Origin: an uncultured Akkermansia sp.
Lineage (GTDB): Bacteria > Verrucomicrobiota > Verrucomicrobiia > Verrucomicrobiales > Akkermansiaceae
NCBI GenBank assembly: GCA_949296365.1
Contig: CASFPZ010000006.1
Span: 1-64,000 of the forward strand
DNA: 64,000 nt
Direction: 5' to 3'
The position numbers were made by a program, and so were the translations under genes. Under the pieces are notes generated by a model that saw only the letters and a list, made by a program, of their open reading frames with translations, ran no database searches and was not told the origin of the DNA. Positions 1,991 through 30,045 of this stretch are shown one piece after another. Numbering within the stretch: position 1 is the first letter of the stretch; each line of letters opens with the position of its first letter.

Positions 1991-3244
1991 ATGAGCTTGC
2001 ATATCAGCATGACAGAAGAGGCTGACAAAGAGCTTCAATCTCAAAAAAAACGCAATTTGTTAACAGCCACAGCAACAGCTTTCCTTTCTATTGTTTTAGG
2101 AGGGCTTCTCCTCTACACCGTGGTCATCGTCGTCGCTTCGCCAGAGACCCCTGAGGTCGTCGCCTATGTCGCTTCAGATACGGATGGTCCGCCCAACGAT
2201 AACCCCGTAACACCCGAGCGAGTCACGACTCGCCCCTCAGCGTCTGTTCAAAACCACGCTAGTGTCATTACTTCCAATGCCGCTAGCGACGTAGCCATTG
2301 CGTCAGTAGACATAGAAACGCCTGATGTTTCCGATTTAGGACAAAGTCTCGATCTAGGGGTTGATTTTGGCACAGGAGTTGGCGACGATTTGGGGACAGA
2401 AGGCGGAGGATTTGGTACCGACAAGGCGGGTGGTAGCACTTTGGTAGGAACCTTTTACGATTTCAAGCAAACACAAGCCGGTAAACCGACCGACATCACA
2501 CCTGCCGCCGCCACTCTCCTCATGAAGGAATTCATTGAAAGTGGATGGAAGGAAAGCAAATTTGCCAAATATTACAAATCGCCCACGAAACTCTACAACT
2601 CACACATCTTCATCACCCGTCGTTCCGCTAAAGAAGCGCCCAAAGCCTTCAAATGCGAAAACAAGGTAAAAGACAGCCGCTGGTGCGCCATTTACCGAGG
2701 CAAAATCGTTGCCCCAAAATCCGGTAAATTCCGTTTCGTTGGCGCAGGTGACGACTGCGTTGCCGTACGATTCAACGGAGAAGAAGTACTCGACTACGGG
2801 TGGTACATGCTCACCGTCTCGAAAGGAGGAGCTACTGCTGGATCTGATTATTATAAATATATGGCAGGCCAAATCAACAATGCCGTCATTCGCAAAGAAG
2901 TGCGCCGAGCCAAAATCTATACAGATATTCCAGCAACATTCTACAAATATTCCAGTATGAATCACTGGAACAATGTATTAGGCGGTTTAGTTGCAGGGAA
3001 AATTTTTGAAGTACACGCTAACGTCACCTACCCTATCGAAATTCTCGTCACTGAAATCCCAGGCGGCGAATTTGGCGCAGTGCTCCTCATCGAGGAAATC
3101 GGGGGAAAATATGCAATGGATAAGAAGTTTCCGAAGTCGCCCATTCTGCCTCTGTTCCGGACTAACTATGCCACACCGGAACCAGCCCCTGGCGAAGCTC
3201 CGCCTTTCGACCCTGTCGGCATTGTCTGGCCAGTTGTCAAATAA
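1991..3244 (+). CDS. Membrane-anchored PA14-domain protein B (tandem paralogue)
   Basis: 417 aa and co-linear with protein A without gaps. The membrane helix, glycine-rich hinge and first part of the PA14 domain differ at only a handful of positions, while residues about 260-330 of the PA14 domain carry most substitutions (for example ALVVRF to CVAVRF, and SVSKGNPTAGGEHYKF to TVSKGGATAGSDYYKY). This pattern suggests duplication followed by change in a ligand-facing surface. It ends in FDPVGIVWPVVK like its twin. It has its own promoter-like region and a terminator behind it. No Shine-Dalgarno; the start context is ATCATG. Function unknown; the anchor could cooperate with an ExbB-type motor or serve as a periplasmic glycan sensor, both pure inference. 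Confidence 0.85.
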   Translation: MSLHISMTEEADKELQSQKKRNLLTATATAFLSIVLGGLLLYTVVIVVASPETPEVVAYVASDTDGPPNDNPVTPERVTTRPSASVQNHASVITSNAASDVAIASVDIETPDVSDLGQSLDLGVDFGTGVGDDLGTEGGGFGTDKAGGSTLVGTFYDFKQTQAGKPTDITPAAATLLMKEFIESGWKESKFAKYYKSPTKLYNSHIFITRRSAKEAPKAFKCENKVKDSRWCAIYRGKIVAPKSGKFRFVGAGDDCVAVRFNGEEVLDYGWYMLTVSKGGATAGSDYYKYMAGQINNAVIRKEVRRAKIYTDIPATFYKYSSMNHWNNVLGGLVAGKIFEVHANVTYPIEILVTEIPGGEFGAVLLIEEIGGKYAMDKKFPKSPILPLFRTNYATPEPAPGEAPPFDPVGIVWPVVK

Positions 3245-28242: not shown

Positions 28243-29241
28243 ATGACCCAGCAGCAAACGAGTATGGATACGACGTTTTCAGATCTGACCGTCCAATACC
28301 TAAAATCCCTTAAGTACAGGGGGATTCCCAACATAGTAATCGATGATGAGGCGCGTCAAATTCTTCGGGAATGGACTTTGCAGATGCGTTCTACTCGCTC
28401 TAATGGTTCAACACGCAGCAAGGACATCTCCCAGGGACATGAAAAAAATTTGTCATCCTCAACACCAGCTGCTCAGGGGCCGACTGTAGACAGAGTTGCC
28501 GATCAAGGCCAAGGCATCATTGATTTTACGCATCTACGTCATGTTTTATCCGCCGACTCAGAGCCATCAACCGAAAATCCCGTGATTAGCCTGCCGACCC
28601 TCGGTGGCAATACGCTTGAAGAAAAATTGAATGCTCTGAGAACCATAGCAGAACATTGGCAACCAGCACGGGTTTTAGGCACCTTGCGTCCAACAATGGT
28701 TTTTGCAACAGGCGACCCTCATGCTTCGCTGATGTTGATAGGCGAAGCTCCTGGTTATCATGAAGAACGATTAAGAGAGCCATTTGTGGGGCCAGCAGGC
28801 GAAAAGCTTGATGGAATTCTCAAAGCCATGGGCCTCTCTCGCCAGCAAGTCTACATCAGCAATATTGTCAAATTTCGTCCATCCATTCCGAGGCAAACGA
28901 CCAATAACCGGCCACCAACCCCACAGGAAATCACCTATTGTTTACCAATCATTACCAAGGAAATTGAATTAATTAACCCTCGAGCCATCATAGCCCTCGG
29001 CGCCACAGCAGCTAAGGGGCTCCTAGGGACAGCCAATACACCGTTGTCTGCGCTCCGCGGCAAATTCCATAATTTCCAGGGGATTCCGGTACGAGTGACT
29101 TATCATCCTAGTTACTTATTGCGCAATGAAGAGCTCTCTGAGCGTCGCAAGGTCTGGGAAGACATGCTAGCCATCATGGAATTATTGGGCATGCCTATTT
29201 CAGACAAACAACGTCATTTCTTCCTACCTAGAAACCGTTAA
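28243..29241 (+). CDS. Family 4/5-like uracil-DNA glycosylase lacking iron-sulfur ligands
   Basis: 332 aa. The C-terminal 200 residues match the family: LMLIGEAPGYHEE (motif A about 163-175), FVGPAGEKLD, SRQQVYISNIVKFRP and YHPSYLLRNEE (motif B His, about 286-296). In family-4 enzymes a CxxC before motif A, a Cys in NVVKCRPP and one in the following helix hold a 4Fe-4S cluster; here the equivalent positions read EHWQPA (no Cys), NIVKFRP (Phe) and ITYCLP (Cys kept), so the cluster cannot form normally. The N-terminal 130 residues are polar and poorly conserved. Role: removal of uracil from DNA, if active. Start chosen at 28243; M8 (28264) is the alternative. The TrpC-like gene follows after 12 nt. 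Confidence 0.85.
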   Translation: MTQQQTSMDTTFSDLTVQYLKSLKYRGIPNIVIDDEARQILREWTLQMRSTRSNGSTRSKDISQGHEKNLSSSTPAAQGPTVDRVADQGQGIIDFTHLRHVLSADSEPSTENPVISLPTLGGNTLEEKLNALRTIAEHWQPARVLGTLRPTMVFATGDPHASLMLIGEAPGYHEERLREPFVGPAGEKLDGILKAMGLSRQQVYISNIVKFRPSIPRQTTNNRPPTPQEITYCLPIITKEIELINPRAIIALGATAAKGLLGTANTPLSALRGKFHNFQGIPVRVTYHPSYLLRNEELSERRKVWEDMLAIMELLGMPISDKQRHFFLPRNR

Positions 29242-29253
29242 TTCCTGTTGTCT

Positions 29254-30045
29254 ATGGATTACCTAAACATCCTCCAAACATGGCACCACAATCGTTTGAA
29301 AAAGCTCCTTCCACTGGAAGGGAAACTTCGAGCCTCAGCCATTCTGCGCAACGAATACGCCGGATTTCGATCAGCAGTAGACGTCGGAGAAAACCAATTA
29401 TCCGTCATTGCCCAGCTCACAAGGACCTCGCCCTATGAGGTATCATCTGGTATTGGGGAAGAATCCCTCTCAGCAGCAGCTCGACGTATGATAGAGGGCC
29501 ACATTCAGGGGATTTCTCTCATTGTTGAAGAGGCCTTGTTTGGCGCACGTTCCAATGATTTGCCTGTCCTCTCGAGAATGAGCCCTATCCCTGTATTGGC
29601 ACGAGGATTATGGACACACCCAGTGGAGATTTGCCAAGCTATTGTCAGCGGAGCCGATGCCATCAATCTCGTCGCTGAAATACTCGACAACGCCACCCTA
29701 CGCGACCTCTATGCCCTTGCAACAGGACTCGGGCTCGACGTCATGGTTGAAGTCCACTCGCTCCAAGATGTTGAACGCGCTCTAGATCTAGAAGCAGATC
29801 TCATCTGCATCAATCACAAAAATCTCCATACAGGCAGTATCAATCCCGATCTTACCGAATTGCTCATCGATGAAATTCCAGCTTCAACAGTTGTGCTCAG
29901 CGCTGGAGGAATCGACAGTATTTTCCAAGCCCAGCGTCTTCTTGAAGCTGGCACCAATGGACTCATTTTAGGCCAAGCCCTCACGCAAGCCCATATTCCT
30001 CAGGATTTCATCGCACAAATTCTCGACCTCCGCATGTCCGAATAA
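29254..30045 (+). CDS. Indole-3-glycerol-phosphate synthase-like (TrpC family) protein with altered active site
   Basis: 263-aa TIM barrel that aligns without large gaps to TrpC, whose usual job is ring closure to indole-3-glycerol phosphate in tryptophan synthesis. Compared from memory with E. coli TrpC, the catalytic strand ECKKASPS reads AQLTRTSPY (Glu53 to Gln, Lys55 to Thr), LCKDF reads LARGL (general-acid Lys114 to Arg), GINNR reads CINHK (Asn184 to His) and SESGI reads SAGGI (Glu and Ser lost). Only the EV(H) Glu and the phosphate-binding GxI/GQAL part survive. Normal IGPS activity is therefore doubtful. It follows the UDG gene by 12 nt and no other trp genes are nearby. A TTG at 29248 is an alternative start. 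Confidence 0.8.
   Translation: MDYLNILQTWHHNRLKKLLPLEGKLRASAILRNEYAGFRSAVDVGENQLSVIAQLTRTSPYEVSSGIGEESLSAAARRMIEGHIQGISLIVEEALFGARSNDLPVLSRMSPIPVLARGLWTHPVEICQAIVSGADAINLVAEILDNATLRDLYALATGLGLDVMVEVHSLQDVERALDLEADLICINHKNLHTGSINPDLTELLIDEIPASTVVLSAGGIDSIFQAQRLLEAGTNGLILGQALTQAHIPQDFIAQILDLRMSE

Follow-up and report, generated by a model that had tools for sequence, protein, structure and literature searches.

The window, a 64,000-nucleotide stretch of contig CASFPZ010000006.1 from an uncultured Akkermansia sp. (GCA_949296365.1, positions 1 to 64,000; genome G000 below), contains a gene of the indole-3-glycerol phosphate synthase (IGPS/TrpC) family, an enzyme of the tryptophan pathway, immediately downstream of a gene of the uracil-DNA-glycosylase (UDG) superfamily. 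The features on which the analysis rests, together with a second IGPS-family gene of the same genome, are the following.

28264..29241, + strand: UDG-superfamily gene (family-4-like), directly upstream of the IGPS-like gene; Pfam PF03167, 126 bits, start placed by comparison with G015
29254..30045, + strand: IGPS/TrpC-like gene encoding a putative pseudoenzyme of 263 aa, ATG at 29254; Pfam, alignment, AlphaFold model and PDB matches
29413..29421, + strand: codons Q54-L55-T56, positions of Glu51 and Lys53 on strand β1, both replaced; alignment
29602..29604, + strand: codon R117, position of the catalytic acid Lys110, β3, Arg in 12/12 orthologues; alignment
29665..29667, + strand: codon N138, position of Leu131, β4, Asn in 12/12 and Leu in 78/78 other IGPS; alignment
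29749..29751, + strand: codon E166, catalytic Glu159, β5, kept in 12/12; alignment
29812..29814, + strand: codon N187, essential Asn180 (E. coli Asn184), β6, kept in 12/12, the next codon being H188; alignment
29902..29907, + strand: codons A217-G218, positions of Glu210-Ser211, β7, both replaced; alignment
G000:C58:4265-5050: operonic trpC (L036) of a trpEGDCFBA operon; Pfam

The earlier note on this DNA described a TrpC-like barrel encoded by an intact gene, and this description is borne out by a clean frame from the ATG at 29254 to the stop at 30045, by a Pfam IGPS match (PF00218) of 128 bits against a cut-off of 27 (E 4.6e-37), and by the predicted fold. The ATG start (MDYL) is kept in the orthologues, and an in-frame TTG at 29248 is an alternative start that would add two residues. 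IGPS chains in the PDB match the protein in phmmer searches with E-values of up to 2e-22, and an AlphaFold model built from seven sequences (pTM 0.89, mean pLDDT 87.6) contains eight of the eight barrel strands, with the IGPS of M. tuberculosis and Brucella as its closest PDB folds (3t44, 3t55, 3tsm; TM 0.82-0.89). The NCBIfam TrpC equivalogs give a best score of 125 bits against a cut-off of 260, placing the protein below every TrpC cut-off; at 202 bits, the operonic Akkermansia TrpC does not reach it either, and two other TrpCs, from the family and the order, clear the cut-off at 296 and 308 bits. An Rfam search of the window returned a tRNA as its sole match, and a promoter and terminator scan found sites no more often than in shuffled sequences. 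Elsewhere in the window, the neighboring ORFs at 441-1826 and 1991-3244 have in common a stretch of almost the same sequence (MSLHISMTEEAD.ELQSQKKRNL...), an apparent tandem duplication, and a homologue is located close to trpC in a different Akkermansiaceae genome (L111).

The window genome has two IGPS-family genes. The second supplies the canonical trpC that the earlier note had proposed to look for, and is located on contig C58 within a complete operon of trpE, trpGD (a single ORF), trpC, trpF, trpB, and trpA, in which trpC was named by Pfam and the other genes by reading their sequences. On a defined medium, the amino acid requirement of A. muciniphila for growth is threonine (PMC6163243), which implies a working IGPS in this species, for which the operonic TrpC is the candidate. 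A Pfam profile search found no IGPS-family gene in 38 of 76 Akkermansia genomes, or in 23 of the 55 of good quality, and many Akkermansia species thus probably lack the ability to make tryptophan.

Catalytic residues were read from an alignment of 90 proteins in Sulfolobus numbering, which the 1igs chain bore out from position 106 onward. The comparison set comprised 78 other IGPS, drawn from other Akkermansiaceae, the order, the phylum, three members of other phyla, and the operonic Akkermansia TrpC, in all of which E51, K53, S56, K110, L131, E159, N180, R182, S211, and G233 are invariant. The changes in the IGPS-like protein are Glu51 to Gln, Lys53 to Thr, Lys110 to Arg, Leu131 to Asn, Arg182 to Lys, Glu210 to Ala, and Ser211 to Gly. 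K53, K110, L131, and S211 are replaced in 12/12 members of its clade and S56 in 11/12, counts that rest on about four independent lineages, and Lys110 to Arg, Leu131 to Asn, and Ser211 to Gly are common to all 12 orthologues and occur in none of the 78 compared TrpCs. This pattern of replacement at IGPS-invariant residues is beyond chance.

Several of the changes that the earlier note listed against the E. coli enzyme hold in this alignment, namely the loss of both catalytic lysines (E. coli Lys55 to Thr and Lys114 to Arg, equivalent to Lys53 and Lys110) and the conversion of ES to AG in the SESGI loop (Glu210-Ser211 to Ala-Gly). Alignment and predicted fold alike place Thr at the β1 position and Arg at the β3 position, with no other Lys or Glu taking up the catalytic sites. 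Position 53 is Thr in the window gene and Ser, Ala, or Thr across the 12 orthologues. The change of E. coli Glu53 (Glu51) to Gln is correct for the window gene but not general, being shared with G015, while the other ten orthologues keep Glu. The claimed change of Asn184 to His was rejected as a one-residue alignment shift, since the Asn (N187) is kept in 12/12 and the His is the adjacent H188. Two features absent from the earlier note are the retention of the essential Glu159 (E166) and the unusual, fixed change of Leu131 to Asn. At the phosphate site, Ser211 is Gly in 12/12, and Gly233 is kept in the window gene and G015, the remaining ten orthologues having Gln or Arg there. The Glu210 position is Ala or Thr in the clade, a weak argument alone because it is Ala also in 13/13 operonic Akkermansia TrpCs. 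These operonic proteins have Ala at Glu210 in 13/13 and at Gly212 in 12/13, though the matching Glu to Ala mutant of the M. tuberculosis enzyme is inactive.

Lys53, Lys110, Glu159, and Asn180 are listed as essential in IGPS (PMC7681013). Mutagenesis of the M. tuberculosis enzyme has shown that Lys119Arg, equivalent to Lys110Arg, lowers kcat by more than 2700-fold with no rise in KM, that Lys59Ala and Glu219Ala, at the Lys53 and Glu210 positions, abolish detectable activity, and that Glu57Gln, at the Glu51 position, lowers activity 200-fold (PMC10591298). Taken with the combination of replacements in a single protein, these mutants make the loss of IGPS activity in the IGPS-like protein very likely. 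The contrary reading, in which the protein would still act as a slow IGPS or as a back-up to the trp operon, can draw on the family-level Pfam match, the retained Glu159 and Asn180, and the intact predicted fold; it is nevertheless highly improbable, because Lys110 to Arg alone and the loss of Lys53 are each so damaging in the M. tuberculosis enzyme (PMC10591298) and because the complete trp operon of the same genome includes an ordinary TrpC. The view that the gene does not encode a working IGPS is thus strongly supported by the lost residues, the published mutants, and the complete trp operon.

The altered gene was found in 12 of 76 Akkermansia genomes, at 50-100% identity, and all 12 also carry the operonic TrpC. 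Its absence from G063 and G082 is explained by a syntenic locus that is missing from the assembly or cut by a contig end. In a set of 241 genomes from the phylum and 60 from the family, those outside Akkermansia yielded one IGPS match each with few exceptions, the family matches being ordinary TrpC, and two peptide patterns of the clade, searched against 84,980 species genomes, recovered only Akkermansia and three ordinary relatives. Phylogenetic analysis, one of the checks proposed in the earlier note, placed the 12 altered genes in one conserved clade of orthologues (support 100/100) that falls within or next to the TrpCs of other Akkermansiaceae (100/99), and gave the operonic Akkermansia TrpC a lineage of its own, outside the group formed by the family and the order. 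A topology in which the two Akkermansia copies group together was rejected (p-AU 0.028), and with it, given the tree, a duplication of the operonic TrpC within Akkermansia. Joining the operonic TrpC to the family group was not rejected (p-AU 0.107), nor was a topology with the clade as sister group of the entire family set (p-AU 0.211). Judged from the tree and these tests, descent of the altered gene from an Akkermansiaceae TrpC is well supported, and strict vertical descent, as opposed to transfer between family members, seems likely; that the operonic TrpC is of foreign origin also seems likely, with weak support.

The altered gene shows purifying selection close to that of its operonic counterpart, with dN/dS values of 0.09-0.21 compared with 0.11-0.15, the deepest pair lying near synonymous saturation. 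Its frame is open, with no internal stops, in 12 orthologues down to about 50% identity. A decaying, non-functional copy might be suspected from the long stem branch (1.69 changes per column) and from the many family-conserved residues that were lost, and yet this reading was rejected on dN/dS and is very hard to sustain given the open frames and the specific residues that were switched and then fixed; the earlier note had likewise argued against a decaying pseudogene. Among 135 family-conserved sites, 48 are kept, 70 are variable in the clade, and 17 have switched to another residue fixed in 12/12. Ten of the 17 switched sites lie in barrel strands (Fisher p 0.0009) but are not enriched at the C-terminal, active-site ends of the strands (p 0.61), and some of the change may therefore reflect repacking of the core. 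Within the clade, conservation is highest over the N-terminal 44 residues, where representatives share a mean identity of 75%, and the β1-α1 loop is barely conserved (15% identity, residues 61-80). Overall, the pattern reads as one of rebuilding followed by constraint, not decay, and because the residues of the old reaction are lost and selection nonetheless persists, the altered gene very probably does a different job from IGPS.

The reading preferred here, to which we give a probability of about one half, is that a TrpC was repurposed, losing IGPS activity and retaining its barrel as a ligand-binding pseudoenzyme. A different trp operon would have come to supply IGPS activity, and the family's own TrpC, made redundant, would have been freed and rebuilt through Lys110 to Arg, Leu131 to Asn, and Ser211 to Gly, with Glu159 and Asn180 retained. 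The outcome would be a polar pocket floor of R117, N138, E166, and N187 on strands 3-6, devoid of the ring-closure acid, in a barrel that most likely binds a small molecule without IGPS chemistry and is most likely made together with the upstream UDG-family protein. That the pocket still binds something is moderately likely; the loss of Gly233 in ten orthologues and the weakly conserved β1-α1 loop imply that the two subclades may have different ligands, or none. These two features count against the pseudoenzyme reading, as do the lack of enrichment of switched sites at the active-site ends and the small number of independent lineages, about four, behind each count of 12/12.

The pseudoenzyme reading also has to face the fact that the kept Glu159 and Asn180 and the new Arg could serve another reaction. 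The protein may accordingly be imagined as an enzyme of new specificity, in which the pocket of Arg117, Asn138, Glu166, and Asn187 catalyzes a different reaction, Glu166 acting as the base and Arg117 anchoring an anion or carbonyl. Such an enzyme would account for the purifying selection and for the retention of two IGPS-essential residues in 12/12 with Arg and Asn newly fixed beside them, and IGPS barrels can be converted to new catalysts, as seen in the designed Kemp eliminases and retro-aldolases on the IGPS scaffold among the PDB matches. Variation between the two subclades at β1 positions 51 and 53, in the β1-α1 loop, and at the phosphate site would be odd for one conserved reaction, however, and no conserved metabolic neighbor gene at the locus suggests a substrate. 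A new enzymatic specificity is thus a possible but less probable explanation, and binding without catalysis would be preferred to a new reaction at about two to one, as a matter of judgement.

The upstream UDG-family gene is a constant neighbor, ending 12 nt before the IGPS-like ATG in G000 and G015 and 3 nt before it in ten genomes of the A. muciniphila group (12/12 loci), a spacing that suggests that the two genes share one transcript. Further upstream, the orthologous loci are syntenic for genes encoding a 3D-domain protein, an HhH-GPD endonuclease III-like protein, and ExbB/MotA-like and ExbD-like proteins, the last two identified by reading. Outside Akkermansia, the family and order loci that were examined showed no UDG close to trpC; many of the family loci extended only 1.5 kb to either side. 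In G066, an 82% complete genome, the syntenic locus (L090, G066:C10:235000-249000) lacks both the UDG and the IGPS-like gene, and has rpsB- and tsf-like genes, identified by reading, adjoining the 3D-domain gene, and no UDG of the upstream-gene type was found in that genome.

This constant pairing raises the possibility that the barrel is ligand-free and serves as a structural partner that stabilizes or regulates the UDG-family protein, to which the joint absence of both genes from the otherwise syntenic G066 locus and the strong conservation of the N-terminal 44 residues lend some weight. The idea is improbable all the same, as UDG paralogues occur in most Akkermansia with no IGPS-like gene present, the UDG that occupies the slot beside the IGPS-like gene differs between subclades, and the polar residues of the pocket floor stay fixed. 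Family-4 UDGs are expected to have iron-sulphur cysteines, most of which are missing from the UDG-family protein here (window 28264-29241; orthologues L005, L006, L050, and L052-L057). In the A. muciniphila group, the UDG beside the IGPS-like gene has TDAPG and NPS motifs, and GEAPG and HPS are retained in a second UDG encoded at another site; the single UDG of the window genome keeps GEAPG/HPS and groups with the second type. The NPS motif is found also in MUG-type glycosylases, and inactivity of the TDAPG/NPS protein therefore cannot be read from the motif. A more speculative and doubtful extension is that the UDG and IGPS-like proteins form a co-translated two-protein unit, with both active sites altered in the A. 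muciniphila group (UDG TDAPG/NPS compared with GEAPG/HPS), so that two retired enzymes would together make up a new module that responds to a metabolite and either binds DNA or regulates repair.

The locus looks like a clear natural example of how a second trp operon can free a family's own TrpC for a new role. Homology-based annotation would very likely label the altered gene TrpC, so that metabolic models of Akkermansia may count a false IGPS. IGPS is a leading scaffold in enzyme design, and a naturally rebuilt pocket of Arg, Asn, Glu, and Asn with fixed replacements offers a ready test object; intact TrpC relatives in sister genera are available for comparison, and Akkermansia is of medical interest and grows on defined medium. 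No usable transposon essentiality screen was found in the open-access literature.

The proposed history resembles that of pseudoenzymes as a general class, in which a duplicated or displaced enzyme retains its fold and remains under selection while catalytic residues are lost; it differs in that no IGPS case has been described, nor this Akkermansia gene, in those parts of the open-access literature reached by full-text search. With IGPS/TrpC proper (EC 4.1.1.48; PF00218), the IGPS-like clade shares homology across the barrel and the N-terminal extension, the same (β-α)8 fold, and Glu159 and Asn180, but has Lys53, Lys110, Leu131, Glu210, and Ser211 all replaced and lies outside the trp operon. 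The closest relatives are the single-copy TrpCs of other Akkermansiaceae genera, at 35-44% identity and with much of the N-terminal segment in common; these differ in that 31/31 retain the catalytic residues checked and no adjacent UDG was found in the loci examined. The operonic Akkermansia TrpC, by contrast, belongs to the same family and is encoded in the same genome as the IGPS-like gene, yet it is only about 26% identical, forms a separate lineage in the tree, and keeps Glu51, Lys53, Lys110, Glu159, Asn180, and Ser211.
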